Source: a bacterium (lineage in GTDB: Bacteria > UBA8248). From it: a DNA stretch of 64,000 bases. The notes beneath the pieces are model-generated. The model worked only from the letters and a program-made list of their open reading frames with translations, made no database searches and was not told where the DNA came from. A program made the position numbers and the translations under genes. Shown here one piece after another: positions 2,400 to 63,168 of the stretch; within the stretch, counting starts at the first letter, position 1, and every line of letters starts with the position of its first letter. The stretch spans positions 204,875 through 268,874 of the forward strand of contig JAJEJD010000019.1 of NCBI GenBank assembly GCA_022828125.1, written 5' to 3'.

Positions 2400-2483
2400 G
2401 GAATCATCCTTGACGATGGTGGAAAATAAGCCGGTTCATCATTCAACGGGAATCTATCAAAACCGCAAGCCGCGCGAAACGCG

Positions 2484-2692
2484 GTTGTTGAAAAAGTCCG
2501 AAAGAAACAAATCACTCCCCCCTTGAGGGGCTTGTTGATAAACCCCGAGAGGAAAATTTGTTTGTGTGTAGGGGTCGCATATATGCGACCCTGATTTTTT
2601 TGCCCACTACAAGGGTCGCATATATGCGACCCCTACAATCCCTTCGGCAAGGCGGTATCCCATTGCCGGCATTGCAGGGTTTTTCAACAACC
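2484..2692. repeat. Repeat element with two perfect palindromes
   Basis: This stretch begins with TTGTTGAAAAAG and ends with TTTTTCAACAA, the same terminal inverted motif found on the family B elements, but the interior differs. Inside, a perfect 20-bp palindrome (GGGTCGCATATATGCGACCC) occurs twice, at 2572-2591 and 2613-2632. The two copies and their flanks (GTAGG / CCTAC) form a larger inverted repeat around 22 bp of spacer. No ORF is supported here. Confidence 0.7.
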
Positions 2693-2702
2693 CCTTGAGA
2701 GG

Positions 2703-2911
2703 GTCGTTGAAAAAGCCTGGTCTGCTCCTCCGCAAACCGCCAACGCCTCTTTCCTCACCCTGAGTAGCCGCCGAAGGCGGCGTATCGAAGGGCGCAGGGA
2801 GTCGAACGCCTCGCGCCGGGCGAGAGCAAACACTCATTCATCAATCGCGTTTGGCCTTCGATACGCGGCTCCGCCGCTACTCAGGATGAGGCGGAGAGGG
2901 GGTTTTTCAAC
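2703..2911. repeat. Dispersed repeat, family B copy 1
   Basis: About 209 bp bounded by GTTGAAAAAGCC and its complement GGTTTTTCAAC. Inside are two facing arms, CTGAGTAGCCGCCGAAGG at 2760-2777 and CGGCTCCGCCGCTACTCAGG near 2866-2885, each a small hairpin, plus TATCGAAGG / CCTTCGATA arms. A nearly identical copy is at 37199-37408 and a diverged one at 42530-42786. The remaining sequence to 3133 (2912-3133) contains no recognisable gene. Confidence 0.75.
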
Positions 2912-3133
2912 AGCCCCTTGAGGGAGTGGTTGGTTCACGCTCTGCAAGCGAGTAGTAAAGTTTCATCCCTCCATGACCGGCTCCATAAGTGGAATCACAA
3001 AATCACGAAATCCTCATCTTTTCCTCGCCCTTAACTTGCTGTATAAAGCCGCTTTGCGGCGCGTCCGCCGGAAAATCGCCCGTTTGGCTGATGCGGCCCG
3101 CCGCGCGCGGAGAACATTTTTCTGGAGAAGACG

Positions 3134-3556
3134 ATGAATACGACCGCCTTGAGCCTCACCCTGCTCGCCGTCGTGTGCTTCGGCGTCTGGGGATTCTTTA
3201 TGAAGATGGGGCAGGAGCGCCTGGGCGCGATGCCCCACCTCATGGGCATGGGCGTCACGACCGCGGTCGTCGTCATCATCGCCGTCTTGAGCAGGCAGTT
3301 CCCGCTTCCGGCGATGCGCATGGAGGTCATGTGGCTGCCGATAGTCGCCACGGTGGCCACCCTGCTGGCGATGCTCTTTCTGGTGCTGGCCCTGTCGAAG
3401 GCGGAAGGCCAGACGGCGGGCGTGGTGGCACTCTCGGCGCTTTATCCGGGCGTCACGGCGGTGCTGGCGGCGATGTTCCTGGGCGAGGGCTTTACGCCCG
3501 CCAAGGTGGGCGGGCTCGTCTGCGCCGCCCTGGCCGCATTCCTGTTCACGCGCTAG
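3134..3556 (+). CDS. EamA/DMT-family small transporter
   Basis: A 140-residue, strongly hydrophobic protein with about five membrane segments, the size of one EamA domain. The C-terminal part (AEGQTAGVVALSALYPGVTA then FLGEG near residue 115) matches the conserved end of the drug/metabolite transporter repeat. Single-domain members are thought to act as dimers. ATG at 3134 follows GGAGAAGACG. It sits 17 bp upstream of hyuA and may be co-transcribed, which would fit uptake of a hydantoin- or oxoproline-like substrate; that link is inference. Confidence 0.8.
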   Translation: MNTTALSLTLLAVVCFGVWGFFMKMGQERLGAMPHLMGMGVTTAVVVIIAVLSRQFPLPAMRMEVMWLPIVATVATLLAMLFLVLALSKAEGQTAGVVALSALYPGVTAVLAAMFLGEGFTPAKVGGLVCAALAAFLFTR

Positions 3557-3573
3557 GTGGATACGCTTAAACC

Positions 3574-5721: not shown

Positions 5722-7430
5722 ACGCGAACCCGATAGTGAGCGAAATTCTGGCGGGCGCGCTTCGCGCCATCGAAGAAGAGGTGGAGGACCTCCTCGCGCG
5801 CATCTGGCGAAGCCCATCCCTGCGCGACGCGGGCGATTTCTCGGTCTGCCTGTTCGACCGTTTCGGGCGCGCGCTCACCGGGCGGGTGCTCGCCACCGGC
5901 CCCGCGCCCGTCATCCGCGCATATCCCGAGATGGACGAGGGCGACGTCTTTCTCCACAACGACCCCTACATGCCCCCCGCGGGCCTGGGCGAAGCCGCTG
6001 AGCTCTGCCTCACACGCCCCCTCTTCGCGGACGGCGCGCTCATCGCCTTTTTGCAGATCAGGGGGCGCCACGACGACCTGGGCGGCGCGCTGCCCGGCGG
6101 GGCCAGCGTCGGCTCGAGCGAGAGCTATCACGAGGGCGTCCTCATCCCGCCGGTTCGGATAGCGTGTGGGGATGAGACGATCGAGGACATCAAGACCCTG
6201 CTCCTCAGGAACAGCCGCCAGGCCCATCTGTTGGGAGATGACATCGACGCTCAGCTCGGCGCGCTCCGCGTCGGCGCGGCGCGGCTGAAAGAACTGACGA
6301 GGCGCTACGGGGCGGAGAACCTGACGGCGTGCTTCGCCGACTTGCTCAGAGAGTGCGAACTCGCGTTCCGCGGCCATCTCATCCCGCAACTCCCCGAAAA
6401 AAGCTGGACGGCGCACACCGCCGTCGAAACGGACGGCTTGAACGGCCCCCACGAGCTCGCGCTCACGCTCACGCGGCAAAAGGACGCCCTGCACGTCGAA
6501 CTGGACGCGGCCCCCCAGGCGCGCGGCCCCATCAACTGCCCCCTGGAAGGAGAAGGCGCGCAGTTCCTGACCCGCCTCTTGGCTCCCATGCTGCTCCATC
6601 TTCAGGACGATATGAATGAGACTCCCCTGAACGACGGGGCCTTGCGGGCATTTCAGATGAAATTGCCGGAACCCGGCACGATTCTCACTCCCCGCTTCCC
6701 CTCCCCGACGGGCCTGAGGGCGCTCACGCTCGGAAAGCTGCTCTCGGCGTTCGGCGAGGCGCTCTTCGAAGCCTCGGGCGGGCGCACGCCCACCGGTTTC
6801 GACAACCTGAGGACGCTCAGCTTCTGGGGACACGACGAGAAAGGCGGTTTCCACCTGTTGAGAGAAGCCCTGGGCGCAGGCGCGGGTGCACACATGACGG
6901 GGGACGGGGCATCCGCCGTTCCTCCGCTCGGTGCGACCGGCGGCATGCCCGTCGAGGTGATGGAGGCGCGCTATCCGGTGCGGGTCGAATCGATGGGACT
7001 GGCGCAGGACTCGGGCGGCGCGGGCGCGCGACGCGGCGGCCTGGGCGTGTTCCGGGAATACCGGATGCTCATCGACGGCGTATCGGCAAGTGCTGCGGGA
7101 AGCGCCGAAGCCGGCCCCGCGGGCGGCCCGGGCGCATCGCCCGGAAAGCCCTACGAGATGCGCCGGCGCTCCGGCAAAAAGAGCGCGCAGGCCCCCGCCG
7201 TCGGCGCGTCAACGGCGTTTGTGAGCGGCGATTCGATTCGCGTCTCCACCCCCGGCGGCGGCGGGTGGGGCGACCCCAGGGAACGCGACCCCGAGGAAGT
7301 GCGCGCCGACGTTCTGCGCGGATTCGTCTCGCCCAAGGCGGCGGAGGTAGCCTACGGCGTGGTTCTGGGAGGCGCGCCGGGCTTTCAAATCGATGCGGAT
7401 GCGACCCGAAAACGCAGGCATGGAAAATAA
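5718..7430 (+). CDS. hyuB: Hydantoinase/oxoprolinase subunit B
   Basis: A 570-residue HyuB-family subunit, partner of the preceding HyuA in ATP-dependent ring opening. Family hallmarks are the NDPY motif (~residue 76), the G-R-H-D-D-L-G-G segment near 115, and the C-terminal GGGGWGDP motif (near residue 513) followed by the short helical tail E-V-R-A-D-V. The usual NDPYxGGTHLPD is altered to NDPYMPPAGLGEA, so metal or substrate contacts may differ from characterised enzymes. Transcription probably ends before the gap promoter at 7497. Confidence 0.88.
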   Translation: MNANPIVSEILAGALRAIEEEVEDLLARIWRSPSLRDAGDFSVCLFDRFGRALTGRVLATGPAPVIRAYPEMDEGDVFLHNDPYMPPAGLGEAAELCLTRPLFADGALIAFLQIRGRHDDLGGALPGGASVGSSESYHEGVLIPPVRIACGDETIEDIKTLLLRNSRQAHLLGDDIDAQLGALRVGAARLKELTRRYGAENLTACFADLLRECELAFRGHLIPQLPEKSWTAHTAVETDGLNGPHELALTLTRQKDALHVELDAAPQARGPINCPLEGEGAQFLTRLLAPMLLHLQDDMNETPLNDGALRAFQMKLPEPGTILTPRFPSPTGLRALTLGKLLSAFGEALFEASGGRTPTGFDNLRTLSFWGHDEKGGFHLLREALGAGAGAHMTGDGASAVPPLGATGGMPVEVMEARYPVRVESMGLAQDSGGAGARRGGLGVFREYRMLIDGVSASAAGSAEAGPAGGPGASPGKPYEMRRRSGKKSAQAPAVGASTAFVSGDSIRVSTPGGGGWGDPRERDPEEVRADVLRGFVSPKAAEVAYGVVLGGAPGFQIDADATRKRRHGK

Positions 7431-7496
7431 TTTCGTGCTTTTTCCCCGATGCAGCGGATTCAAGGCGCAAAGAGAGACAAAAAACAACGAGTGCAC

Positions 7497-7525
7497 TTGG
7501 AGCCGCCCATCGTATCGGGTAGAAT
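7497..7525 (+). promoter_or_regulatory. Sigma70-type promoter for gap operon
   Basis: TTGGAG at 7497-7502 and TAGAAT at 7520-7525 are 17 bases apart. This gives a leader of about 80 nt before gap (7613), which carries AAAGGAGAG before its start codon. Prediction only. Confidence 0.55.
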
Positions 7526-7585
7526 CCGCCCGCGCAGGAGTCGATGAACGCCCGTAACGCCTGAGCGTACATTTTTATCCCCTAA

Positions 7586-8617
<1,032 letters not shown>

Positions 8618-8629
8618 GAGGCTTCGGCA

Positions 8630-9853
8630 ATGGCGACGATCACGAGCACGATTGAGAACGGCGACCCCAAACTCGGCGTCGAGGACGTCGACGTCGCGGG
8701 CAAGCGCGTTTTCCTGCGCGTCGATTTCAACGTGCCGCTCGACGACCAGGGACACATCACGGACGACGCCCGCATCCGGGCGGCCCTGCCCACCATCAAC
8801 TATCTGCTGGACGAGGGCGCGCGGGTCGTCATCGGCTCCCACATCGGCCGGCCCAAGGGAAAGCCCGACCTCAGAAATTCCCTCGGCCCCGTCGCAAAGC
8901 GGCTGGCCCGGCTTCTCGAGAAGGAATGCCCCCTCGCCCCCGCCCCCACGGGAGCGGAGACCCGGAGCATGGCGGAGGAGATGCGGCCAGGCCAGGTGCT
9001 CCTGCTGGAGAACCTCCGGTTTCATCCGGGCGAGGAGAAAAACGACGATAAATTCGCCCGCGAACTCGCCTCCCTGGCCGACATCTACATCGGCGACGCG
9101 TTCGGCAACGCCCACCGCAACCACGCCTCGATGTCGGCGATCACGAAATTTTTGAACCCCGCCGTCGCCGGTTTCCTGATGATCAAGGAGGTCAGCTACC
9201 TGAGCGGCGCGGTGAACAACCCGATGCGCCCCGTGGTGGCGATCGTCGGGGGTGCCAAGGCGAGCGCGAAAATCGGCATCGTCGAGCGGATTCTCCCCAA
9301 GATGGACAAGATCGTCATCGGGGGCGGCATGGCGGGCACCTTCCACCGCGCGCTGGGCTACGAGATGGGAAACAGCCTCGTCGAGGAGCACATGGTGGAC
9401 ACGGCGCGATCCATCATGAACAAGGCGCAGGAGCTGGAAGTGAAGTTCTATCTCCCCAGCGACTACGTGATCGCGGACAAGTTCGAGGCCTCGGCGGAGA
9501 CCAAGGTGGTGCCGGCCCAGGAAGTGCCCGAGGAGTGGTACGCGCTCGACATCGGACCGGCGAGCACCACCTTGTTCGGCGAGGTGCTCCAGGACGCGAA
9601 GACCATCATCTGGAACGGGCCGATGGGCGTGTTCGAGGTGGACGCCTTCTCGCGCGGCACCTACGCGATGGTGAACCACGTGGCGAACTCCTACGCGCTG
9701 ACCATCGTGGGCGGCGGCGACACGGACGTGGCCGTTCACGCGGCGGGCGAATCGCGCCGCATCTCCTACATCAGCACGGGCGGCGGCGCCTTCCTGGAAC
9801 TGCTCGAGGGGAAAGAACTCCCCGGCCTAGCCTGTCTCACGGACAAAACCTGA
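8630..9853 (+). CDS. pgk: Phosphoglycerate kinase
   Basis: A 407-residue cytoplasmic kinase transferring phosphate from 1,3-bisphosphoglycerate to ADP. RVDFNVPLD (residues ~27-35), SHIGRPKG (~68-75) and LLENLRFHPGEEKND (~125-139) are the classic substrate-binding stretches. The nucleotide-binding GGAKASAKIG and the C-terminal GGGDT are present. It starts 12 bp after gap and is clearly in the same operon. Length and motifs are ordinary. Confidence 0.97.
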   Translation: MATITSTIENGDPKLGVEDVDVAGKRVFLRVDFNVPLDDQGHITDDARIRAALPTINYLLDEGARVVIGSHIGRPKGKPDLRNSLGPVAKRLARLLEKECPLAPAPTGAETRSMAEEMRPGQVLLLENLRFHPGEEKNDDKFARELASLADIYIGDAFGNAHRNHASMSAITKFLNPAVAGFLMIKEVSYLSGAVNNPMRPVVAIVGGAKASAKIGIVERILPKMDKIVIGGGMAGTFHRALGYEMGNSLVEEHMVDTARSIMNKAQELEVKFYLPSDYVIADKFEASAETKVVPAQEVPEEWYALDIGPASTTLFGEVLQDAKTIIWNGPMGVFEVDAFSRGTYAMVNHVANSYALTIVGGGDTDVAVHAAGESRRISYISTGGGAFLELLEGKELPGLACLTDKT

Positions 9854-9883
9854 AAACTCCACAAAGATAAAGAGGAACTCGCG

Positions 9884-10666
9884 ATGCGGCGCGCCCTCGT
9901 GGCCGGCAACTGGAAGATGAACAAGACGATTGAGGAGGCGCGAACCCTCGCGCGCGAGGTGGCCGGGGGCGTCGCGGAGGATGGACTCACAGGCGTGGAC
10001 GTCCTGCTCGGCCCCCCGTTTCTTGCCCTTTCGGCGGTCGTGGAGGCGGTCTCGGGGAGCGCCGTCGGCGTCGCGGGTCAGAACTGCTCCCATCATCCGG
10101 ACGGCGCACATACCGGCGAGGTGAGCGTCTCGATGCTCAGGGATGCGGGCGCCACCCACGTCATCCTCGGGCACAGCGAGAGGCGCGAATTGATGGGAGA
10201 AGGTGACGGCCTCATCGCCCGAAAGGCGCAGGCGGCGAGCGCGGGCGGCCTCACGCCCATCATCTGCCTTGGAGAACCGTTTACGACGAGAAAAGCCGGA
10301 AAGACGCTCGAGCGCCTCGCCCACCAGATAGAGCATTCGATTCAGGGCGCGTTCGCCTCCCCTCCTCCGGGGGGTTTCATCGTCGCGTACGAACCCGTGT
10401 GGGCCATCGGCACGGGCCTCACGGCCACGCCCGAACAGGCCCAGGAGGCGCACGCGTTCATCCGCGAGCGGCTCGAAGACATTTTTGGCTTGGAATGCGC
10501 GCAGGAAACGCGTATCTTATACGGAGGCAGCGTAAAACCGGATAACGCCGCGGATTTGTTTGCACAACCCGACATCGACGGCGGCCTCATCGGCGGGGCG
10601 AGCCTGAACGGCGCAGATTTTCTGGAAATCATCCGTTCCGCGGGGCCGGATTCCGCACAGACATGA
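9884..10666 (+). CDS. tpiA: Triosephosphate isomerase
   Basis: A 260-residue TIM-barrel enzyme interconverting dihydroxyacetone phosphate and glyceraldehyde-3-phosphate. GNWKMNKT at residues 7-14 holds the active-site lysine. LGHSERRELMGE near 97-108 has the electrophilic histidine, and AYEPVWAIGTG near 168-178 has the catalytic glutamate and the loop-6 hinge. The phosphate-binding YGGSVKPDN and LIGGASLN motifs close the barrel. It follows pgk by 30 bp, with AAGAGGAA before its ATG. Confidence 0.97.
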   Translation: MRRALVAGNWKMNKTIEEARTLAREVAGGVAEDGLTGVDVLLGPPFLALSAVVEAVSGSAVGVAGQNCSHHPDGAHTGEVSVSMLRDAGATHVILGHSERRELMGEGDGLIARKAQAASAGGLTPIICLGEPFTTRKAGKTLERLAHQIEHSIQGAFASPPPGGFIVAYEPVWAIGTGLTATPEQAQEAHAFIRERLEDIFGLECAQETRILYGGSVKPDNAADLFAQPDIDGGLIGGASLNGADFLEIIRSAGPDSAQT

Positions 10667-10679
10667 GAAGAGTGAGAAA

Positions 10680-10988
10680 ATGACGATAGTTTTGACCGTT
10701 TTGCATGTAGCCGTTGCGATTTGCCTGATCCTCTCCGTACTTCTACAGGCGGGCAAGGCCGGCGGCATGGGCGCCGCCTTCGGCGGATCGAGCGACACGA
10801 TGTTCGGCACGCGGGGACCGGTGAACTTCCTGAGCAAGGTTACGACCGGCGCCGCCGTTCTCTTCATGGTGACCTCGCTTCTGCTCACCTACATCGGCTC
10901 GCATAACGCCAACCAGGGCGGTTCGATAGTTCCCGCCGCACCTGTGCAGACCGCACCGACCACACCTGCCGCCCCGGAAAAGAAATAG
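10680..10988 (+). CDS. secG: Preprotein translocase subunit SecG
   Basis: A 102-residue inner-membrane accessory subunit of the SecYEG channel. It has two membrane helices (about residues 3-22 and 53-74) joined by the conserved cytoplasmic loop ending G-G-S-S-D-T-M-F-G-T-R-G, and a short Pro/Ala-rich tail. It lies 13 bp after tpiA, the very common tpiA-secG order. RBS-like GAGAAAA precedes the ATG. Confidence 0.93.
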   Translation: MTIVLTVLHVAVAICLILSVLLQAGKAGGMGAAFGGSSDTMFGTRGPVNFLSKVTTGAAVLFMVTSLLLTYIGSHNANQGGSIVPAAPVQTAPTTPAAPEKK

Positions 10989-11030
10989 AGCGAGGCCGAC
11001 TCCTCTATTCAAGCGTTCTAAGGGCCGACG

Positions 11031-13109
11031 ATGCTGATCAAGCGCATCCTGCTGCTGCTCCCCATTCTCATCGCGGCCGCGTTGTTCCAGTCCTATTTCT
11101 GGGTGCCGACGTTCTCCGACCAGACCAAGGGCGGCAGCGACGAGCGCCTTCGCCAGTTCATCACCGGCTCCATCGGCGACGCGCAAATCCTGAACCCCAT
11201 CCTTCACGCCGACACGGCGAGCGGGGCCATCGTCGATCAGATATTCGAGGGCCTCATCGACAGGGACCGCGACCTCTCCTACCGGGGCCGTCTGGCCGCC
11301 TCGTGGAAAATCTACGAGGAGGCGTTCTTCGTGCCCCATCCCGAGGGGCCCGGCGCGAAGGCCCTGGCGGCGCGCATCGAGCGGGCGCGCGCCGAAGGCG
11401 GGGCGCAGTGGCTGAAAAACGTCGAAAAAATCGAAGCCGTCGCTCCCGCCGAGCAGAAAACGACGATTCGCACACCCCCGCCCAAGGGAGAGAAACAACC
11501 CGGCAAAAAAGAGGTCGTCATCGCCTATCCCGAGCGGGTGAAGGTGACACTCAAGAGCGTGGATCAGGACCTGTTCAAGCATCTGGAGAAGCTGCTGGGC
11601 GAGAAATGGGCCGCCAAGGACCCCGCTCGCTACATCAAGACCAAGCTGCCCGATAAACTGCTCCCCTTCGCCACTCGGCGCGTCAAGCTCACCGAGCACA
11701 ACCCGATCATCATCTTCAAGCTCAGACGCGGCGCGCGCTTTCACGACGGCCACGAGTTCGACTCCGGCGACGTGCGCTTCACCTACGAAGCCATCATGAA
11801 CCGCAAGAACCTCTCGCCCCGGGTGCCCGACTACGAGCCCGTCAAGCGCGTGGAGACGCCCGACAGGTTCACCGTCAAGATCACCTACAAGCGGCTCTAC
11901 TCCCCCGCTTTCGGCTCATGGGGCATGGGGATGCTGCCCGAACACCTGCTGAACGAGAAAAAGCTCGCCGAAGAAGCGAAGCAAAAGGGCAAGGACCCCA
12001 AGGCGTTCAGCCTGCGCGACAGCGCGTTCAACCGAAAGCCCGTCGGCACGGGGCCGTTCGTCTTCAAGGAATGGCGCTCGGACGAACTCATCCGCCTCGG
12101 GCGGAACGAGCATTATTGGGAGGGGCCGCCCGAGTATCACGAATACGTCTACCGAATCCTGCCGGATCCCCTCACGCAGGAGATCACCTTCTACGCGGGA
12201 ACGGTGGACCGCTACGGGGCGGGCGCGCACCAGGTCGAGCGCCTCAAGAAGGACCCGAGGTTCCAGGTGTTCTCGGGCCTCGGCTTCGGTTACACCTATG
12301 TCGGCTACAACCAGCGGCGCTGGCCGTTTCAGGACGCGCGCGTGCGCCGGGCGCTGGGCATGGCGGTGAACACCGCTCAGATTCACCGCTACGTGCTGAA
12401 CGGCGAGGCCGAGGACATTACCGGCCCGTTCGTGAAACAAAGCCCGCACTACAACAAAAAAATCAAGCCCGTGCCCTACGACCCCGAAGGCGCGGTGCGC
12501 CTGCTGCACGAGGCGGGGTTCAGGAAAAAAGACGGAATCCTGATGAAAGACGGCAAGCCCCTCGCATTCAACCTCATGACGAACCACGGCAACGAGATCA
12601 GGCGCGCCGTCGGCACCGTCGTGCAGGACGCCTGGAAGAAGATCGGCGTCAAGATCACCTTCTCACAGGTCGAGTGGGCGGTGTTCATCCGAAAGCACGT
12701 CAACCAGCTCAATTTCGACGCCGTCGTCCTCGGCTGGAGCATGGGCCTCGACCCCGACCTCTACCAGATCTGGCACTCGAGCCAGACGAACAAGGGCCAG
12801 CTCAACTTCGTGGGCTACAAGAACCCCAAAGCCGACGACCTCATCATCAAGATCCGCCAGGAATACGATCTGGCGAAACAGGTCCGCTACGCGCACGCGC
12901 TCCACAGCATCATCGCGGCGGATCAGCCATACACGTTCCTCTACGTCGGCAAGTGGACAGCGCTGCTCGACAGGAAAATCGCCATCGCCCGGCGTCTCAG
13001 GAGCGGAAAGTTGCGGCCCGAAAAAATCCGTCCCACCATCACGGGGAGCTATTCGTTCGATTTCAACGAGTGGCTGAAATTCCCCAAAATCCCCCGGTTC
13101 GAGAACTAA
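11031..13109 (+). CDS. Family 5 extracellular solute-binding protein, long form
   Basis: Peptide/oligopeptide-type ABC transporter binding protein of 692 residues, longer than the usual 500-600. An N-terminal hydrophobic segment (residues ~4-20) acts as signal or anchor; no lipobox cysteine is seen. The family core is recognisable: I-L-N-P-I-L-H (~53), LRRGARFHDG (~227-236) and the V-R-R-A-L-G-M-A-V-N region (~442). Between residues ~105 and ~220 is an extra Lys/Glu/Pro-rich stretch replacing the short linker normally found before F-x-L-R. Two permease genes follow with 1-bp and overlapping junctions. Confidence 0.88.
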   Translation: MLIKRILLLLPILIAAALFQSYFWVPTFSDQTKGGSDERLRQFITGSIGDAQILNPILHADTASGAIVDQIFEGLIDRDRDLSYRGRLAASWKIYEEAFFVPHPEGPGAKALAARIERARAEGGAQWLKNVEKIEAVAPAEQKTTIRTPPPKGEKQPGKKEVVIAYPERVKVTLKSVDQDLFKHLEKLLGEKWAAKDPARYIKTKLPDKLLPFATRRVKLTEHNPIIIFKLRRGARFHDGHEFDSGDVRFTYEAIMNRKNLSPRVPDYEPVKRVETPDRFTVKITYKRLYSPAFGSWGMGMLPEHLLNEKKLAEEAKQKGKDPKAFSLRDSAFNRKPVGTGPFVFKEWRSDELIRLGRNEHYWEGPPEYHEYVYRILPDPLTQEITFYAGTVDRYGAGAHQVERLKKDPRFQVFSGLGFGYTYVGYNQRRWPFQDARVRRALGMAVNTAQIHRYVLNGEAEDITGPFVKQSPHYNKKIKPVPYDPEGAVRLLHEAGFRKKDGILMKDGKPLAFNLMTNHGNEIRRAVGTVVQDAWKKIGVKITFSQVEWAVFIRKHVNQLNFDAVVLGWSMGLDPDLYQIWHSSQTNKGQLNFVGYKNPKADDLIIKIRQEYDLAKQVRYAHALHSIIAADQPYTFLYVGKWTALLDRKIAIARRLRSGKLRPEKIRPTITGSYSFDFNEWLKFPKIPRFEN

Positions 13110-13110
13110 C

Positions 13111-14106
13111 GTGGGCGCCTACATCATCCGCACGAGCCTGTTCAAGCTGGCGACGCTTTTCATCATCTCGGTCGTGAGCTTCCTCATCATCCATCTCGCG
13201 CCCGGCGAGCCGAGCCAGATCGACCCCCTGAACCCGCGCTTCACCCAGGAAGACCTCGCGCGCTACCGCGCCGCCTTCGACCTCGACAAGCCGCTGCCGG
13301 TGCAATACTGGCTCTTCTACAAGAAATTCTTCACCGGCGAACTCACGAGCTTGAAGGACAACCAGCCGGTTTTCGGGAAGATATGGCGGCGCTTCCTCAT
13401 CAGCCTGCCCCTGTTCGTCGTGGGCACCATCATCACCTGGTGCCTCTCGTTTCCGCTGGGAATCGCGGGCGCGCTGCGGCGCTACAGCGTATTCGACCGC
13501 TCCACCACCTTCATGAGCTATCTCATGATCTCGATGCCGAGCTTCTTCCTGGCCTACATCCTCATCATCGCCGTCGTCCAGGGGTTCACGCTGCCCTTCA
13601 TCGACTACCGCGTGCCGGGCCTGGAAGTTTCCGTGCTGGGCATCGAGACTTTCGGACGGGGCGAGGTCTCTCCCCTGTTCCGGATCAACGACCGCGTCTG
13701 GCATCTGGTGCTGCCGAGCCTCGTGGGCGCGATAGGGGGCATCGCCGTGCTCTCGCGCTACGTGCGCGGCCAGATGATAGAGGTGGTGGATTCGGACTTC
13801 ATCCGCACGGCCCACTCCAAGGGACTGGATGAGGACACCGTGAACTACGTGCACGTCCTGAGAAACGCGGCCCTTCCCTTCGTCACCATGTTCGGCCTCA
13901 TCCTGCCGGGGCTGATCGGCGGCTCGGTCATCATCGAGAACATCTTCGCGTGGCCCGGCATGGGTCGGCTGGGCTTCGAGGCCGTGCTGGCGCGGGATTA
14001 CCCGGTCATCCTGAGCCTGAACTTCATCTCCGCCATTCTGGTCGTCATCGGCACGTTCATCTCGGACGTCCTGCTCGTCGTCGTCGACCCGAGGATCCGC
14101 CTATGA
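13111..14106 (+). CDS. ABC transporter permease, DppB/OppB type
   Basis: A 331-residue inner-membrane permease. The N-terminal L-I-I-H-L-A-P-G-(E)-P motif (~residues 27-36) is typical of OppB/DppB proteins. The EAA loop, with D-F-I-R-T-A-H-S-K-G-L near 229-239, is the contact site for the ATPase, and the C-terminus ends in V-D-P-R-I-R-L. GTG start at 13111, one base after the stop of the binding-protein gene, implies coupling. No ATPase gene is found on either side. Confidence 0.92.
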   Translation: MGAYIIRTSLFKLATLFIISVVSFLIIHLAPGEPSQIDPLNPRFTQEDLARYRAAFDLDKPLPVQYWLFYKKFFTGELTSLKDNQPVFGKIWRRFLISLPLFVVGTIITWCLSFPLGIAGALRRYSVFDRSTTFMSYLMISMPSFFLAYILIIAVVQGFTLPFIDYRVPGLEVSVLGIETFGRGEVSPLFRINDRVWHLVLPSLVGAIGGIAVLSRYVRGQMIEVVDSDFIRTAHSKGLDEDTVNYVHVLRNAALPFVTMFGLILPGLIGGSVIIENIFAWPGMGRLGFEAVLARDYPVILSLNFISAILVVIGTFISDVLLVVVDPRIRL

Positions 14107-15605
14107 ACGAGACGCTCGAAATGCGTGAGATGATCGAGGAGATGGGGGAAGAACTTACCCCCGGCCAGCGCGTTTGGCGGCATCTTCAGAAAAACCGCAT
14201 GGCGATGGCGGGCGGCGTCGTGCTGGTGATCTTCTTCGCCCTGGCGGCGATTGGCTTCGTCAATTCCGCCCTCATGAGCGAGCCGATGTTCGACGCGAAC
14301 GTCGTGCGCCTGCCGGACAAGCTCATGGCCCCCTTCTCCGCCCCGAACGTGGAGCAGGTTCCCAAAGAAAACCTCCCGCGCCTGGGGATATACGTGTTCG
14401 GCACCGACGATCTGGGCCGCGACGTGTTCGCCAGGATGCTCGAGGGCACCTTCATCTCGATGTCGGTGGGCTTCGTGGCTATCGGCATCGCCACCCTGCT
14501 GGGCGTCGCGATAGGCGGAATCGCAGGCTTCTACGGAGAGATCAAGCCGAGCGGCGCGCCGCTCTTCGGCTTCACCGGCGCGGGCCTCACCGGCTACGCC
14601 GTATGGAACGAACTGGGGTTTCTGGCTTTGCTCTTCTGTGCGATAGGCGGGGGCGCAGGATTATCGGTGCGCCGCGACGGGCGCTCCCTGTTCCTGGAGG
14701 GCATGATCTTCGGCGCGCTGCTGGGCCTGGCGTTCGGTCCGTTCGATCCGTTCGGGTTCAGCGGCTTCACCTCCGACTCGGGCCTCCTGGTGCGCACGCC
14801 CTACTGGCGCGAGGGATTCCTGGGCGCGGCCTGCCTCTTGACGCTCGCCGCATTCGGCGGGGCGCAGGGCGCGAACGCGGAGGAAAGCGCGGCGGACGGC
14901 TTCTCCCTGAGCGCCGTGTTCGGCGGAGGCCTCACCTATTTCCTCTTGTTCCTCGCAGGCCTGTATATCGCCTATCCGGGCCAAGCGTCGCACGCCTGGA
15001 CGAGCATCGCGGGGGCGGCGGTTTTCGTGTATCTCTATCAGCGGTTCGACGTCACCGGGCGTCTCGGGCAATTCCGCCTGCCCAAGGTGGACGTCATCTA
15101 CACCACCATTGTGGACGTGCAGCTCTCGTTCCCCTCGTTTTTCGTGCTGCTCACCATCCTCGCCCTCGTGACGCCCAACATCTGGATCATCATGGTGGTC
15201 ATCGGCGTCCTCGGCTGGGTGGGGCCGGCGCGTTTCGTGCGCGCGGAGATCCTCTCGCTCAGGGAGCAGCCCTTCGTGGAGTCCGCGCGCGCCTCGGGCG
15301 GCTCGGACAGGCTCATCATCTTCCGCTACTTGATCCCCAATTCGCTGGCGCCCGTCCTGGTCTCGGCCACCATCGGCATCGCGGGCGCGATCCTCACCGA
15401 AGCGAGCCTGAGCTTCCTGGGCTTCGGCGTTCCGCCGCCCCAGGCGAGCTGGGGGAACATCTTCTCGGACGGCAAGAAATACATCTTCGACGCCCCCTGG
15501 CTCACCTTCATCCCGGGTTCGGCGATACTCATCGTCATGCTCGCCTTCAACCTCTTCGGCGAGGGCCTGCGCGACGCCATGAACCCGAGGGCGAACTCCA
15601 GATAG
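14103..15605 (+). CDS. ABC transporter permease, DppC type, with large membrane insertion
   Basis: A 500-residue partner permease; the ATG at 14103 overlaps the stop of the previous gene (ATGA). The core is DppC/OppC-like: F-G-T-D-D-L-G-R-D-V-F near residue 99-109, an EAA loop with F-V-E-S-A-R-A-S-G near 392, and G-L-R-D-A-M-N-P at the end. Ordinary members have about 280-310 residues. Here about 180 residues (roughly 145-325) are inserted between the G-I-A-G-F-Y-G segment and the K-V-D-V-I-Y region, which are nearly contiguous in relatives. The insert contains about four or five extra hydrophobic helices and a Gly-rich loop. Confidence 0.9.
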   Translation: MNETLEMREMIEEMGEELTPGQRVWRHLQKNRMAMAGGVVLVIFFALAAIGFVNSALMSEPMFDANVVRLPDKLMAPFSAPNVEQVPKENLPRLGIYVFGTDDLGRDVFARMLEGTFISMSVGFVAIGIATLLGVAIGGIAGFYGEIKPSGAPLFGFTGAGLTGYAVWNELGFLALLFCAIGGGAGLSVRRDGRSLFLEGMIFGALLGLAFGPFDPFGFSGFTSDSGLLVRTPYWREGFLGAACLLTLAAFGGAQGANAEESAADGFSLSAVFGGGLTYFLLFLAGLYIAYPGQASHAWTSIAGAAVFVYLYQRFDVTGRLGQFRLPKVDVIYTTIVDVQLSFPSFFVLLTILALVTPNIWIIMVVIGVLGWVGPARFVRAEILSLREQPFVESARASGGSDRLIIFRYLIPNSLAPVLVSATIGIAGAILTEASLSFLGFGVPPPQASWGNIFSDGKKYIFDAPWLTFIPGSAILIVMLAFNLFGEGLRDAMNPRANSR

Positions 15606-54759: not shown

Positions 54760-55695
54760 TCACGAAAATAAGGATTTCGGCAGCATGGCGTGAACCCCTT
54801 TTACCCCATTTACGATTTGAGTCACTCGCAGATCCACGGCAAGACTGCAAAGCGTATATGCGTCATCTCTGTTCATGCCGCGCAACTCTCCCAGAAATTG
54901 AATCGTCTCGCGCAGCGCCATTTTGGCTGCATTATCGAGAATAGGGTCAAAGCCCATCAGGATATAATGCGTTTCGGTCTCCCCCCGGGGGTTTTCAAGT
55001 TGCATATCCTTTCTAACGATGATTTCCATCGTCCCCGAAAGACCCGTTTCAATGGCCGTCAAACAGGCTTCCCCGTCTCCTTGGCAGCCGTGCCCATCGC
55101 CTACGGAGAACAACGCGCCCTCGTTGAAAATCGGGAAATAAGCAACTGAACCCGATATGAGTTCCTTGTTGTCCAGATTCCCGCCCCAGGCGCTTGGGGG
55201 ATAGCTCCCCACACGGCCTACGGCAGGCGGGGGCGCCACGCCGAAGTTTCCGAAATAAGGCCTGAGAGGCACCCTGACGCCCGCGCCCCAGTCCCCCGTT
55301 TGCGCTCCCAGGTCCAAGTCCACGATGACGGCGCGCGTATACGGGAAATCCTCCGGCAATCCCCCCATCATCGGCCTGATGGCGTTATATCCCCAGTCAT
55401 AGCGCGTCTTGACCTCGTGGATGCGGACTTCCAGCACATCTCCGGGTTGCGCGTCTTCTACGGCAACAGGACCCGTCATGATATGGGGGCCAAGTTCCTG
55501 GGGAACCTGTGCGATGATGTCTCTTAAATTCTGGGACGCCCGGTCTCCGAGTTCCGCCAGATATTCCTCCCGGCCCGATTCCGTATGAACCTCCAGCGTG
55601 TCGCCAGAGCGAATCCGCATCACCGGCTCCAGGGAGGCGTCATAAAAACCCCAATGGACAGTATCCGGATTCGCAATCAATTTATGAGTCGCCAT
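54760..55695 (-). CDS. Acetamidase/formamidase family protein, copy 3
   Basis: A 311-residue FmdA/AmdA-type amidase. W-G-F-Y-D (~13-17), the H-I-M-T-G-P (~72-77) and G-D-G-H-G-C-Q-G-D-G-E motif (~201-211), and I-L-M-G-F-D-P-I-L-D-N-A-A near 248-260 are shared with the next two genes. Start overlaps the end of copy 2 by 14 bases. FmdA enzymes hydrolyse short amides to acid and ammonia; the substrate is not known. Confidence 0.85.
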   Translation of the reverse strand: MATHKLIANPDTVHWGFYDASLEPVMRIRSGDTLEVHTESGREEYLAELGDRASQNLRDIIAQVPQELGPHIMTGPVAVEDAQPGDVLEVRIHEVKTRYDWGYNAIRPMMGGLPEDFPYTRAVIVDLDLGAQTGDWGAGVRVPLRPYFGNFGVAPPPAVGRVGSYPPSAWGGNLDNKELISGSVAYFPIFNEGALFSVGDGHGCQGDGEACLTAIETGLSGTMEIIVRKDMQLENPRGETETHYILMGFDPILDNAAKMALRETIQFLGELRGMNRDDAYTLCSLAVDLRVTQIVNGVKGVHAMLPKSLFS

Positions 55696-56650
55696 CAACA
55701 CTCTCCTCCATCAAAATTTCTTTGGGCAGCATCGCATGAACCCCTTTGACCCCGTTCACAATCTGCGTGATGCGCAAATCCACCGCCAGGCTACACAGCG
55801 TATAGGCATCATCTTTGCTCATGCCGCGCAACTCTCCCAAAAATTGAATCGTCTCCCTGAGCGCCATTTTGGCTGCATTGTCGAGAATTGGATCGAACCC
55901 CATGAGGATATGATGAGTCGGCGTCTCGGCACGGGGCATTTTCAAACTCAAATCCTTTCGGATGATGAGTTCAATTTTCGCGGACATGCCGCATTCCAGG
56001 GCTGAGAGACAGCTTTCCCCGTCTCCCTGACATCCGTGCCCATCACCTATGGCGAACAAAGCGCCATCGCGAAAGACGGGAAGATAGACGCGAGAACCTG
56101 CGATAAATTCCTTGTTGTCCATGTTTCCGCCCCAGATTCCCGGCGGAGTGGATGGAACACGGCCAAAATCGCTGGGCGGAGCTACGCCGAAGTTGCCGAA
56201 ATAAGGCCTGAGCGGCACTTTCACGCCGGCGTTCCAATCCCCCGTATTCGCCTCTTTGTCTATTTCCACGATTACCGTTCTCGAATACGGAAAATCCTCG
56301 GGCAAGCCACCCGCCAGGGGCCGGATGACGTTGAAGCCCCAGTCATAGCGCGGCCAGATATCCAGAAATCGCACCTCCAGGACATCTCCTGCAACGGCCT
56401 CTTGCACCGCGATGGGGCCAGTCAGGATATGACCACCCAAATCCCTCTTGCCGCGCTCGGCGATTTCTCGCAGATTTTCAGAAGCTCTTTCCCGTATCGG
56501 AGATTCAAGAGTCCGGATCCCCGGCTCGGTGTGAATTTCGAGCACATCGCCCGAAGCGACGGTGAGAACCGGAGAAAGATCGGCGTCATAATAACCCCAC
56601 TGGATGTTGTCGGGGTTTTGCGCAATCACATGTTCGGCCAAGGATGACAC
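55682..56650 (-). CDS. Acetamidase/formamidase family protein, copy 2
   Basis: A 322-residue member, same motifs as copy 3 (W-G-Y-Y-D, H-I-L-T-G-P, G-D-G-H-G-C-Q-G-D-G-E). It carries a 7-residue acidic tail, E-E-S-V-D-G-D-S, lacking in the others. GTG start at 56650; no convincing Shine-Dalgarno, and the gene follows copy 1 by 16 bases, so it likely depends on upstream translation. Divergent N-terminal half, near-identical C-terminal segment. Confidence 0.85.
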   Translation of the reverse strand: MSSLAEHVIAQNPDNIQWGYYDADLSPVLTVASGDVLEIHTEPGIRTLESPIRERASENLREIAERGKRDLGGHILTGPIAVQEAVAGDVLEVRFLDIWPRYDWGFNVIRPLAGGLPEDFPYSRTVIVEIDKEANTGDWNAGVKVPLRPYFGNFGVAPPSDFGRVPSTPPGIWGGNMDNKEFIAGSRVYLPVFRDGALFAIGDGHGCQGDGESCLSALECGMSAKIELIIRKDLSLKMPRAETPTHHILMGFDPILDNAAKMALRETIQFLGELRGMSKDDAYTLCSLAVDLRITQIVNGVKGVHAMLPKEILMEESVDGDS

Positions 56651-56666
56651 CTTATAAATATGAAAC

Positions 56667-57608
56667 TTATTCGAACAAAGATTTGGGCACCATGGCGTGG
56701 ACGCCCTTGGTGCCGTTCACGATTTGAGTCACGCGCAGGTCGACCGCCAAACTGCACAACCTGTACGCATCATCACGGCTCATGCCGCGAAGCTCACCCA
56801 AGAACTGAATCGTCTCCCGCAAGGCCATCTTCGCCGCATTGTCGAGAATCGGGTCAAAGCCCATCAGAATGTAGTGCGATTCCGTCTCCGCGCGCGGGGT
56901 CTTGATGTTCATGTCCTTTCGGACGGTCATCTCGAAAGTGCCGATGAGGCCCATCTCGATTCCGTTGATGTTCGCCTCGCCATCCCCCTGACAGCCATGA
57001 CCATCGCCCACGGAGAACAAAGCGCCTTCGTTGAAAACAGGCAAATAAATCGTCGAGCCGGCCGTGAATTCCTTACAATCCGTATTGCCACCCCACTCTC
57101 CCGGAGGAGACGACGACACGCGCCCGAGCGCCGGAGCGGGTGCTACCCCGAAATTTCCGAAAAAAGGCCCGAGCGGCACCTTGACTCCCGCGCCCCAGTC
57201 GCCCGTTCCACTCTCCTCGTCCACCTCGACAATCACAACCCTCGTATAAGGGAAATCCTCCGGCAGACCACCCATCAGGGGTCTGAAGCCGTTGTAGCCC
57301 CAATCATACCGGGGTCTGATATCACGAATCTTGATCTCCAGAACATCGCCGGGTTCGGCGCCTTCGACCGCCACCGGACCCGTCATGATGTGCGCACCGG
57401 GCCCCTGTTCCATCGTCTCCAGGATTCGCCTCAGATTATCCGAGACTCTCTCGGGATGTTTTTGCAGGAAATCCTTGCGCCCAGACTCGGTTTTCACGAC
57501 AAGCGTATCGCCGGAAGCAACCGCCATGACGGGAGCAAGAGCTGAGTCATAAAAGCCCCAATGGCAGGTATCGACGGTGGTATCCAGTTCATGCGTGGCC
57601 AAAGGCAT
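56667..57608 (-). CDS. Acetamidase/formamidase family protein, copy 1
   Basis: A 313-residue member, first of the tandem triplet. W-G-F-Y-D (~17-21), G-D-G-H-G-C-Q-G-D-G-E-A (~204-215) and the C-terminal D-P-I-L-D-N-A-A-K-M-A segment are intact. AGGAGGA immediately before the ATG. All three are in the same direction and probably one transcript with the downstream cupins and oxidoreductase. No regulator gene is visible nearby. Confidence 0.87.
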   Translation of the reverse strand: MPLATHELDTTVDTCHWGFYDSALAPVMAVASGDTLVVKTESGRKDFLQKHPERVSDNLRRILETMEQGPGAHIMTGPVAVEGAEPGDVLEIKIRDIRPRYDWGYNGFRPLMGGLPEDFPYTRVVIVEVDEESGTGDWGAGVKVPLGPFFGNFGVAPAPALGRVSSSPPGEWGGNTDCKEFTAGSTIYLPVFNEGALFSVGDGHGCQGDGEANINGIEMGLIGTFEMTVRKDMNIKTPRAETESHYILMGFDPILDNAAKMALRETIQFLGELRGMSRDDAYRLCSLAVDLRVTQIVNGTKGVHAMVPKSLFE

Positions 57609-59930: not shown

Positions 59931-60082
59931 AGTCATTCATGATGGGCCTGAATTATAGATACCCCGGAATCTTAGCGGCCATTAAATGATGTTTCCGCCA
60001 TATATACTGAAAATTATCGCACCGCGATTTGTATCATTTTCATAAGTATAAGCAGGAGAAGAAGAGAATAGGAGAAAAGAAC

Positions 60083-61774
60083 ATGACGGAGCAGAAAACA
60101 GCCCTGAATCGATTTAGCCGGCGCATCACCCAACCGCCCTCACAGGCCGCCTCACAGGCCATGCTCTACGGCGCGGGGCTGGATGAAATCGACATGAAAA
60201 ATCCCCAGGTCGGCATCGCCAGCATGTGGTGGGAGGGAAATTCCTGCAATTTTCACCTCAACCGGCTGGCCGAATACATCAAGCAAAGCGTGAACGACGA
60301 GAAGAAAATGGTCGGCCTCATTTTCAACACGATCGGCGTGAGCGACGGTATCTCAATGGGCACGGAGGGCATGAAATACTCCCTGCAATCCCGGGATCTC
60401 ATCGCCGATTCGATCGAGACCGTCGTCGGCGCGCAATGGTATGACGCACTGGTCACGCTTCCCGGATGCGACAAGAACATGCCCGGCTCCATCATGGCTA
60501 TGGCACGGCTCAACCGGCCCAGCCTGATGGTTTATGGCGGCACTATCAGCCCAGGGTTTCTGAATGGAGACAAGCTGGACGTGGTTTCCGCCTTCCAGGC
60601 CTACGGCGAATATTTCTCGGATAAAATCGACGAAGAACGCTTTCAGTCGGTCATCCGGCATGCCTGCCCGAGCGGCGGCGCCTGCGGGGGTATGTACACG
60701 GCGAATACGATGTCTTCATCCATCGAAACGCTGGGCATGAGCCTGCCTTACAGTTCATCGAATCCCGCCATGAGCGAGGATAAGAAAAACGAGTGTCTCG
60801 ACGTGGGGAAAGCCGTCTATCACCTGCTCGAAAACGACATCAAACCCAGCGACATCATGACGAGAGAAGCGTTCGAGAACGCGATCACCATCATCATGGC
60901 ACTCGGAGGCTCCACCAACGCCGTCCTCCACTACATCGCCATCGCCAAGGCTGTCGGGGTCGAACTCACAATCGACGATTTTCAGGAAATCAGCGACAAA
61001 ACGCCTTACATCGCGGATCTGAAGCCCAGCGGCAAATTCGTCATGGAAGATCTCCACGACGTGGGCGGTGTGCCGGCCGTTCAAAAACTTCTCTTGAAAG
61101 AAGGTCTGCTCCATGGCGATTGCCTCACCGTCACGGGCAAGACGCTCGGAGAGAACATCGAGGCCTTGCCCGACCTCCATGCCGGCCAAAAAGTCATCGT
61201 GCCGCTCGCGTCTCCCATCAAGAAAACGGGACACCTCCAGATCCTCTACGGAAACCTCGCGAGCGAGGGCGCCGTCGCCAAGATCACGGGAAAAGAAGGA
61301 GAACGTTTCGAAGGCCCTGCGCGATGCTTCGATTCCGAGGAAGACGCCCTAAAAGGACTGGAGGAAAACAGAATTCAAAAAGGAGACGTCGTCATCATCC
61401 GCTACGAAGGTCCCAAGGGAGGCCCCGGGATGCGGGAGATGCTGACGGTTACTTCCGCAATCATGGGCGCCGGCCTCGGGAATGACCTTGCCCTCATCAC
61501 GGACGGCAGATTCTCGGGTGGCACGCATGGGTTCGTCGTCGGACACGTTACGCCTGAAGCCCAAAGCGGCGGTCTCCTCGCGCTCATCGAAGACGATGAC
61601 ACCGTTTTGATCGATGCCCAAAAACGCGTCATGGAACTCAAAGTACCCGAGGAAGAGATAGAGCGACGGCGGCAGAACTGGAGCGCGCCCGCGCTCAAAT
61701 TCACAAAAGGTACGCTCTACAAGTACGCCAAGTGCGTATCTTCGGCGTCTGAAGGATGCGTGACGGACGAATAA
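60083..61774 (+). CDS. ilvD: Dihydroxy-acid dehydratase
   Basis: A 563-residue iron-sulfur enzyme of valine/isoleucine synthesis. P-G-C-D-K-N-M-P-G (~127-135) and [17 protein letters not shown] (~195-211) hold the cluster ligands; [11 protein letters not shown] (~473-483) is the substrate motif. ATG at 60083 follows AGGAGAAAAGAAC. Ends with a strong terminator. The 5' leader (59931-60082) shows no attenuator I can recognise. Confidence 0.96.
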
Positions 61775-61785
61775 AGGTTAGCTAC

Positions 61786-61821
61786 AAAAAAAGAGGGGAG
61801 AAAACGACTCCCCTCTTTTTT
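61786..61821. terminator. Rho-independent terminator
   Basis: AAAGAGGGGAG pairs with CTCCCCTCTTT around AAAACGA, with A/T tracts on both flanks, so it can stop ilvD and the convergent phosphatase-like gene. Confidence 0.85.
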
Positions 61822-61838: not shown

Positions 61839-62303
61839 TTACGATGTGTTCGTTCTTTTCCTTTGGTTGGCGAACTCCTCGAAATATCCTCCGATGGAAG
61901 AAGCCGCCCAGTCAAAACCAATCTCTTGTGCTTTTTGCAGCACTTCGTCCCCGCTTAGGCCTTCTTCTTCGGCCAGATGAACAAGCGAGCAAATCCCGGC
62001 CCGCCCCACGCCTTTTCAATGAACGTATACCGGACCGTCTTTCCTGGCCTCACGGAGCGCTTCATGGATTTGTCCCGATAACGCATCGTCTATCGTAGCG
62101 GCGTTCACGGGAATATTCACAAAGTCCATTCCCAGTTCCCTTGCCGCCTCTCGTTCTGCATCGGGTGGTAACTCCGGTTCTTCCTCATCGGCGAAACGCA
62201 AATTGACCAGGGTTTTAATTCCCTTATTCGCCAGAGATTCCATATCCTTCCGGCCCGGCTGACTCCCGAATGCCAGATTTTCGGCCAATTCAAAGTAGTT
62301 CAT
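61839..62303 (-). CDS. Tyrosine-phosphatase-like protein, probable selenoprotein
   Basis: A 154-residue DUF442/BLH-type dual-specificity phosphatase fold. The N-terminus A-E-N-L-A-F-G-S-Q-P (~7-16) and I-K-T-L-V-N-L-R (~29-36) are typical. At residue 96 the frame has TGA (62018-62016), in V-Y-V-H-U-K-G-V-G-R-A-G: the P-loop H-C-x5-R with the catalytic cysteine replaced. The 58 residues after it continue the fold (H-L-A-E-E-E-G-L-S-G-D-E-V-L-Q-K-A), so the TGA is not the true end. ATG with GAGGGAAAATTGT upstream; 22 bp after the SirB1 gene. Confidence 0.82.
61983..62006 (-). promoter_or_regulatory. Candidate bacterial SECIS in phosphatase-like gene
   Basis: GGGCGGGC pairs with GCUCGCUU (three G-U pairs) around an eight-base loop, CGGGAUUU, which begins 18 nt after the TGA and has G at position two. 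Placement fits bacterial SECIS. Predicted by eye. Confidence 0.5.
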
Positions 62304-62325
62304 ACAATTTTCCCTCTAAGTGATC

Positions 62326-63168
62326 TTACACTCGCTGCACCAGCTCCCGACAGCGAAGCAGGCAGGTTACTTTTTCATCTTCTCCATCACGCTTATAAAT
62401 TCCAAGCAGATTGTTGAGCATTCTCTCCACGATACGGCGAGGAGGGGTTTCCTGTAAGAACCGCATATCGAAATGATACCCGAGTCCACGCAGAATCGCC
62501 GCGCAATCCCCCACGCTCAGGCGTTTCCCCCTGTCGAAGGGGTCCAGAAAAATGGGCTCCTCATCACCTTGGTATTTGACGATAAAATGTCCCGGCATTC
62601 CGACTCCGTGAAACGGAAGTCCCAACCGTGCGCCAAGAATCAAATACAAAGCGGAAAGTGATATTGGAATGCCCCGTCTGCGCTCCAGCACACGATCCAT
62701 AAAGCTGTTCTGCGCATCATAGTAATTGTCCCGTTCGCCATCGAAGCGAAGCTCCCCGTGGAGATATTCGACGATTTCGGTGACAATGGCGTCGGCTTTA
62801 TTTATACCCACCAAACGTCCACGCAAATGATTCTCCATCTTCAGCAAATCGTCTTTTTTCGTCTCCATGTTTTCGAGAGGATGGCCGAAAGACGCCAGCA
62901 AGAAGCAAGCATCCTCCAGATCTACATCTTCAACCGAAGAAAGAGACCAGTCCGAAAAAGCAACCTCTATTTGACTGTAGTGAAATTCCCGAAGCGAAGG
63001 CGGCAAAATCAGTTCGCTCGCCTCGTGCTTCTTCATCATGCCCAACAGTCTTTTCTGCTCTTCAGTCGAAAATACTGAAACCTGGCGGTCCAATGCCGCC
63101 GTCACACGCGGTGAACCATCATTCAATAAATGATAGACAGCCTCTAATTGCGAATCGCTTAATGACAA
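62326..63168 (-). CDS. SirB1/transglutaminase-like family protein
   Basis: A 280-residue SirB1/YchA-type protein with Transglut_core2 in the middle: Y-D-A-Q-N-S-F-M-D-R-V-L-E-R-R-R-G-I-P-I-S-L (~146-167), H-G-V-G-M-P-G-H-F-I-V (~185-195) and F-L-D-P-F-D-R-G (~206-213). The usual transglutaminase cysteine is not visible. TTG start at 63168. Upstream of and probably co-transcribed with the Sec phosphatase-like gene. Function not known. Confidence 0.8.
   Translation of the reverse strand: MSLSDSQLEAVYHLLNDGSPRVTAALDRQVSVFSTEEQKRLLGMMKKHEASELILPPSLREFHYSQIEVAFSDWSLSSVEDVDLEDACFLLASFGHPLENMETKKDDLLKMENHLRGRLVGINKADAIVTEIVEYLHGELRFDGERDNYYDAQNSFMDRVLERRRGIPISLSALYLILGARLGLPFHGVGMPGHFIVKYQGDEEPIFLDPFDRGKRLSVGDCAAILRGLGYHFDMRFLQETPPRRIVERMLNNLLGIYKRDGEDEKVTCLLRCRELVQRV

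Follow-up and report, generated by a model that had tools for sequence, protein, structure and literature searches.

A DUF442-like gene with an in-frame TGA

The DNA analysed here (the window, 64,000 nucleotides) carries on its minus strand, at 61839..62303, a putative selenocysteine (Sec)-containing gene of the DUF442/BLH type, assigned from its translation, its matches to PF04273 and PF22741 and its place in a set of 22 genes with a TGA. The gene starts with ATG at 62303, ends with TAA at 61841-61839 and is interrupted at codon 96 by an in-frame TGA (62018-62016, minus strand). If this TGA were a stop, the frame would encode 95 amino acids only. Read as Sec, it is followed by 58 further codons before the TAA, and the product has 154 amino acids with U at position 96. 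The active-site stretch then reads VYVHUKGVGRAGICSL, in which U is the nucleophile of the P-loop V-Y-V-H-U-K-G-V-G-R-A-G and stands where the TGA-less homologues have Cys. An earlier note on this DNA gave the loop spacing as H-C-x5-R, which is a miscount, as U-K-G-V-G-R corresponds to U-x4-R.

A possible ribosome-binding site, AGAGGG (62312..62317, minus strand), lies 8 nt 5' of the ATG and is inferred from the sequence only. On the 3' side, a consensus scan placed a weak terminator-like hairpin at 61797..61813 (minus strand); as shuffled sequence gave 1.9 such sites on average and the stretch itself three, support for these is weak. A Transglut_core2 gene (62326..63168, minus strand; PF13369, 145.8 bits) is located 22 nt upstream of the Sec gene on the same strand, and ilvD, encoding dihydroxy-acid dehydratase (60029..61774, plus strand; PF00920/PF24877), converges on it from the other side.

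The TGA is conserved within the phylum

Our search took in all 18 genomes of the window's phylum at hand, which belong to one family. Homologues with TGA were found in 16 of these genomes, 22 genes altogether, and the TGA column is identical in 22/22. The 21 genes other than that of the window share 37-87% identity with it. As for the last two genomes, G011 has a remote Cys relative only and this search found no copy in G012. As loci L038-L043 and the copies of G004-G009 come from identical contigs, they were counted once. The window's own genome holds two Sec copies (L015 and L035), which are 45% alike. The second of them, L035 (G000:C31:198387-198830), sits in another neighbourhood, and four other genomes of this genus contain a counterpart (L033, L034, L036 and L037).

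Within this group the mean pairwise differences at codon positions 1, 2 and 3 were 0.35, 0.27 and 0.55 before the TGA and 0.38, 0.37 and 0.53 after the hairpin described below. Judged from these substitutions, the sequence past the hairpin is evolving as protein-coding DNA. The earlier note had placed the TGA at the P-loop nucleophile and had the frame continue beyond it; both statements were borne out, the first by the invariant column and by Cys in the TGA-less homologues, the second by the translation and by the coding constraint past the TGA.

Several Sec genes (L032, L033, L034, L107, L109 and L110) also end in TGA as an ordinary terminal stop. Because TGA serves these genes as Sec codon and as terminator alike, the codon has not simply been reassigned. 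An error or a general reassignment as the origin of the in-frame TGA was rejected in view of the 22 conserved genes, the Cys/Sec exchange among homologues and this double use.

A conserved hairpin follows the TGA

A bacterial SECIS-like hairpin with a 7-bp stem and an 8-nt loop (CGGGAUUU; 61984..62005, minus strand) is predicted just downstream of the TGA on the basis of conservation, RNAalifold and a freeze of synonymous codons. Its apical loop comprises nt 18-25 after the TGA (61998-61991). All seven pairs are kept in all 22 phylum homologues, and across 17 distinct rows 119/119 cells of the stem (14-20/29-35, counted from the T of TGA) are paired. Two stem pairs show G-U/A-U changes, no double compensatory change was found in the 17 distinct rows of the window's group, and RNAalifold recovered the same helix. 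Codon usage is restricted as well. Within the hairpin, G100 is GGG in 20/20 rows, and A102 (GCC), G103 (GGG), C105 (TGC) and S106 (TCG) use a single codon in 22/22 rows each, whereas the 13 residues outside the hairpin that are identical in the 22 rows (without Met and Trp) use two to five codons each. D131 and F144, which are outside the hairpin and less conserved, have a single codon too. The mean Simpson diversity was 0.17 for eight hairpin columns (97-108) versus 0.46 for the 42 others (nominal p 0.003; the rows are related).

When folded on its own, the window's hairpin did not stand out from shuffles (z 0.04), so that support for the hairpin comes from conservation and not from energy. 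The proposal that a hairpin with its loop 18 nt past the TGA can be drawn held for the position and for the pairs, which are kept in 22 homologues; the energy of the single hairpin is uninformative. The scan also flagged the hairpin as terminator-like (62006-61987). We rejected an intrinsic terminator here, as the frame stays coding beyond it and the counterpart in a second group of genes is kept with the TGA and decays in Cys forms.

A second group of Sec genes

Of 386 genomes sampled across the domain, 45 had a match, and 28 of these do not belong to the window's phylum. No in-frame stop was present in 29/30 places outside the phylum; the exception, G280, has a TGA at the same residue. The active site was read in 23/31 places that do not belong to the window's group, giving Cys in 22 and Sec in one (L093). 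The order of G280 (103 genomes) yielded 22 copies in 21 genomes, of which 17 carry TGA (16 intact, one broken) and five Cys. Intact copies share the motif H-U/C-x-[GA]-[GA]-T-R. A wider search of the second group's phylum (149 genomes, E up to 1e-8) listed no further TGA copies. The search for Cys homologues opposite U that the earlier note had called for thus met with Cys in the TGA-less relatives and with both residues within one order, and the lack of Cys that would have refuted the proposal was not encountered. The broken copy (L124, G478:C164) has the TGA in place and soon loses the frame; the same genome contains an intact one, L108.

The hairpin of the second group is unlike that of the window, with six pairs and a GGUC loop that spans nt 21-24 past the TGA. 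It is paired in 97.9% of cells and was recovered by RNAalifold unaided. Both-sided changes occur in four of the six pairs, a count reached by 1/500 shuffles, and the 12 doubly changed cells were reached by 0/500; further standard pair types were not above shuffles (454/500 as high). The GGUC loop is present in 16/16 intact Sec forms versus 0/5 Cys forms, and in the latter only 76.7% of the stem is paired.

Selenocysteine machinery

The window's genome (3.9 Mb, 32 contigs) encodes selA (575.9 bits), selB (384.5 bits), selD (334.9 bits) and tRNA-Sec (75.9 bits, in agreement with ARAGORN). The genes whose absence the earlier note would have taken as a refutation (selA, selB and selC) are therefore present, as is selD, for which it also called. 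The Sec gene lies apart from the sel genes, on contig 23 versus contig 30. The selD gene (L013) has an in-frame TGA of its own at KAGG-U-GSK and so probably encodes a selenoprotein itself. By eye, it seemed to have a hairpin like that of the Sec gene; the computed fold differs and no such likeness is claimed.

Among the 16 TGA-carrying genomes of the phylum, tRNA-Sec was over the cut-off in 14 (not found in G002 and G013) and selB in 12. The search gave no selB above the cut-off for G001, G002, G009 and G013, the last of which has a fragment at a contig end. Completeness is 67-79% for G002, G009 and G013 and 91% for G001. In the second group, tRNA-Sec was detected in 13/16 TGA carriers and 2/5 Cys-only genomes, so that over both groups it was not found in 5/32 TGA carriers. 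In the family of G280, selB was over the cut-off (threshold 1e-60) in 10/12 TGA carriers and 4/5 Cys carriers; at this threshold it was not found in the TGA carriers G280 and G478. SelB and tRNA-Sec occur together in two Cys-only genomes, G447 and G459.

In two genomes of the second group (G483 and G485; loci L136 and L139), selA-selB precede the Sec gene by about 2.3 kb, and tRNA-Sec follows it at a distance of 5.7-7.0 kb (L136, about 2314-14050; L139, about 2016-15009). In L139, a ModC-like ABC ATPase gene and a ribonuclease D-like gene, both matched below cut-off, lie between selB and the Sec gene.

Judged from the DNA, with no protein data at hand and Sec insertion itself inferred, we regard it as nearly certain that codon 96 is read as Sec.

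Origin of Sec

A tree of 75 rows was drawn with a midpoint root, for drawing only. It includes 13 of the 16 intact Sec rows and all five Cys rows of the second group (L104, L108, L117 and the broken L124 were left out). A branch (96/89) separates both Sec groups, along with twelve Cys rows (five from the second group and seven others), from the remaining rows. The seven include stand-alone 'sulfur transferase domain' proteins (Rubrobacter, Azospirillum plasmids) encoded near MBL-fold and TauE/SafE genes, a Blh, and L172, which is annotated as a tyrosine phosphatase. The window's group is recovered as a single set (100/99), as is the second group together with its Cys forms (100/100), and the tree requires a minimum of four Sec/Cys changes. 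As the hairpins of the two groups are unlike, we suggest two gains of Sec; a single gain with several losses is not excluded.

Family, loop and fold

With the TGA read as Cys, the protein scored 35.4 bits against PF04273 (DUF442, BLH_phosphatase; gathering 26.1), which places it in this Pfam family, and 37.8 bits against PF22741 (gathering 27). The Pfam families over gathering comprise BLH_phosphatase and three PTP-type families (PTP-NADK, PTP-SAK and Tc-R-P). Rhodanese (PF00581) reached 12.6 bits only (gathering 22.2). The NCBIfam matches are to sulfur transferases, namely TIGR01244 (53.1 bits, curated cut-off 85.85) and NF040641, the Blh bifunctional transferase/dioxygenase (65.1 bits, cut-off 625), which is covered at profile positions 3-131 of 423 only. 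Since both scores are under the NCBIfam cut-offs, we treat the Sec protein as a relative and not as a certified member of either family. No Sec-specific NCBIfam model was matched by the seven proteins scanned.

The predicted structure is a PTP fold of moderate confidence (pLDDT 72.5, pTM 0.69; nine-row alignment). The majority of its fold matches are dual-specificity or tyrosine phosphatases. NMA1982 (2f46) and a Shewanella DUF442 protein (3gxg, 3gxh), both titled putative phosphatases, are among the best fold matches and are the closest solved structures by sequence, but they are Cys proteins. The PTP fold is common to phosphatases and DUF442 transferases. Phosphatases such as TpbA and VHR share the overall fold and the nucleophile and Arg of the loop.

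C-x5-R is the signature of protein tyrosine and dual-specificity phosphatases. In contrast, a C/U-x4-R loop, with six residues and a closing Arg, was present in 43/43 sequences compared, and in the alignment the loop of TpbA is one residue longer than that of the Sec protein (x5 versus x4). R36, E40, U/C96 and R101 are invariant in 30 aligned rows. No conserved acid is seen in the column of TpbA D105, which we take to be the general acid. This column holds A, E, D, K, Q, S or V in the 22 phylum rows (D or E in four); in the second group, 13 rows gave D, Q, A, R or G, five of them D. Identity in the alignment is low, and an acid elsewhere is possible.

The DUF442 sulfur transferases offer a precedent. 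According to the accessible parts of the respective papers, in Cupriavidus SQR the loop Cys of the DUF442 domain bears the sulfane sulfur, and transfer requires both this Cys and the loop Arg (PMC6441731, PMC8533005), the loop CRTGTR has six residues including the Cys, as have rhodanese loops (PMC8533005), and Blh transfers sulfur from thiosulfate to cyanide through its DUF442 domain and to GSH through its ST domain (PMC5823870). The transferases of the TIGR01244/PF04273 type (Blh N-terminal domain, Cupriavidus SQR DUF442) resemble the Sec protein in their PTP-like fold, their six-residue C-x4-R loop and a similar length. The Sec protein differs from them in having Sec for Cys and a SECIS-like hairpin and in standing alone, without a fused dioxygenase.

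A putative Sec-dependent sulfur transferase

The UGA at the catalytic column, the SECIS-type constraint, the Sec machinery, the Sec/Cys exchange and the class of fold and loop can all be read from the sequences, as far as such data reach. The chemistry is inferred, and we consider it probable, without being assured, that the protein is a Sec-containing stand-alone relative of the DUF442 (TIGR01244/Blh) sulfur transferases. The earlier suggestion of a phosphatase or a sulfur/selenium transferase was right in scope. Pfam labels the family phosphatase; the evidence favors the sulfur-transferase branch because of the NCBIfam matches, the six-residue loop and the D105 column, in which no conserved Asp was seen. 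From the DUF442 precedent, this unconserved column and the invariant R36, E40, U/C96 and R101, we prefer a Sec-dependent sulfane sulfur transferase. The tree adds support, since both Sec groups lie on the same side of the 96/89 branch as Blh and the stand-alone 'sulfur transferase domain' proteins. Counting against it, the best Pfam matches are named phosphatases, L172, which is among the nearest Cys relatives, is annotated as a tyrosine phosphatase, and the neighbours Transglut_core2 and ilvD are no pointer to sulfur metabolism. With no activity data, we see sulfur transfer as the function to be expected, by a reasonable measure, once Sec is granted.

In the mechanism that we propose, SelB and tRNA-Sec, guided by the hairpin just past the UGA, would insert Sec at position 96. 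The selenolate would sit at the base of the six-residue U-x4-R loop in the pocket of the PTP fold and could take sulfane sulfur, or possibly selenium, from a donor such as a persulfide or thiosulfate, forming an Se-S(H) that stays bound to the enzyme. This intermediate would be activated by Arg101, and the sulfur might then be handed on to a thiol, sulfite or a protein acceptor. Donor and acceptor are inferred, as is any role for selenium.

Sec96 might instead be the active residue of a redox enzyme, where it would reduce peroxides or disulfides and be regenerated by a thiol such as Cys105. The accessible part of PMC13188914 expects redox roles for most uncharacterised selenoproteins, and C105 is invariant in 22/22 phylum rows and could act as resolving thiol. 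However, its TGC codon sits in the hairpin stem, so that the invariance may be an RNA constraint; 18 rows of the second group (13 Sec, five Cys) have A, V or M at this position, and the Sec protein sequence contains no CxxU/UxxC motif. We regard a redox enzyme as unlikely, though it cannot be set aside.

A true Sec-dependent phosphatase, whose pocket would bind a phosphomonoester and whose selenolate would form a seleno-phosphoryl intermediate, could draw on the PTP/DSP fold model, with 2f46, 3gxg/h and many DSP matches, and on the four phosphatase-type families over Pfam gathering. The x4 spacing in all sequences compared, the variation of the D105 column in both groups and the sulfur transferase identity of the NCBIfam matches argue against this. 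Loop spacing and NCBIfam matches in particular led us to reject a plain phosphatase; it is kept as a rival that we think decidedly unlikely.

Rhodanese-type proteins are under discussion as selenium carriers, and the Sec residue might likewise carry selenium as perselenide or selenosulfide towards SelD. The position of the gene between selA-selB and tRNA-Sec in two genomes fits such a delivery role, but these genomes are from one family only, and the window's own copy and its sel genes are on different contigs (23 versus 30). Moreover, G447 and G459 combine selB and tRNA-Sec with Cys forms, and G012 with no copy at all. Selenium delivery as the main function therefore appears very improbable.

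That the TGA is a real stop, in a pseudogene or through an assembly error, would suit the 95-residue frame and the unremarkable single-sequence fold and is scarcely credible in view of the TGA column kept in 21 other genes and in the second group, the coding constraint beyond it, the compensatory hairpin changes of the second group and the full Sec machinery of the own genome.

Returning to the Sec-dependent sulfane sulfur transferase, the most comprehensive form of our proposal is that this is the first PTP-fold protein with Sec in its P-loop, that Sec was gained at least twice, and that the protein is a sulfane sulfur/selenium transferase, which may be connected with selenium supply in genomes where the gene is linked to selA-selB-selC. 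For all of this to hold together, we find the arguments evenly balanced.

Relation to known selenoproteins

A 2026 inventory (PMC13188914) comprises 119 prokaryotic selenoprotein families, including rhodanese-like and arsenate-reductase families, and in its accessible part no DUF442, BLH or PTP type is found among the 119. The statement of the earlier note that no PTP-family selenoprotein has been described is consistent with Table 1 of this inventory, as far as that source was available. A literature search that included PMC12013277, PMC9312934, PMC2398784 and PMC1088965, likewise available in part, revealed no such selenoprotein recognised. The rhodanese-like selenoproteins (forms 1-5, mostly PF00581, in the available Table 1 of PMC13188914) also have a predicted Sec in a rhodanese-type protein, but the fold family of the Sec protein differs, as its model matches the PTP fold. 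Apparently, the genes represent a new selenoprotein family that occurs in two distinct groups of bacteria and has an enzyme type already known as its parent. The family may have remained unlisted because reading UGA as a stop cuts the genes at about 95 residues. It would extend selenocysteine to a fold with textbook reactive-thiolate catalysis, and its natural Sec/Cys pairs offer a way to ask what selenium gains in sulfane sulfur transfer.

Genomic neighbourhood

The order Transglut_core2, Sec gene, ilvD is found in the window and in 15 other loci of its group. In these loci Transglut_core2 is upstream on the same strand and close to the Sec gene, except in L068 with its gap of 1.2 kb. All three genes point the same way in L071-L076 (genera g3 and g6), perhaps as an operon. 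Other neighbourhoods surround copies L062-L067 and those of the second group; none of the neighbours of the window's group was found in 20 second-group loci, four of which were viewed gene by gene. As a guide to function, genomic context was discarded, since the conserved order yields no mechanism.

Elsewhere in the window, two adjoining similar minus-strand genes occupy 55682-57608 and presumably belong, by their look, to the acetamidase/formamidase type; L077 has three matches in a row. Between 58680 and 59930, the window encodes a predicted protein of 416 amino acids with TSP3-like repeats (23.9 bits, gathering 25) and a long K/P-rich tail.
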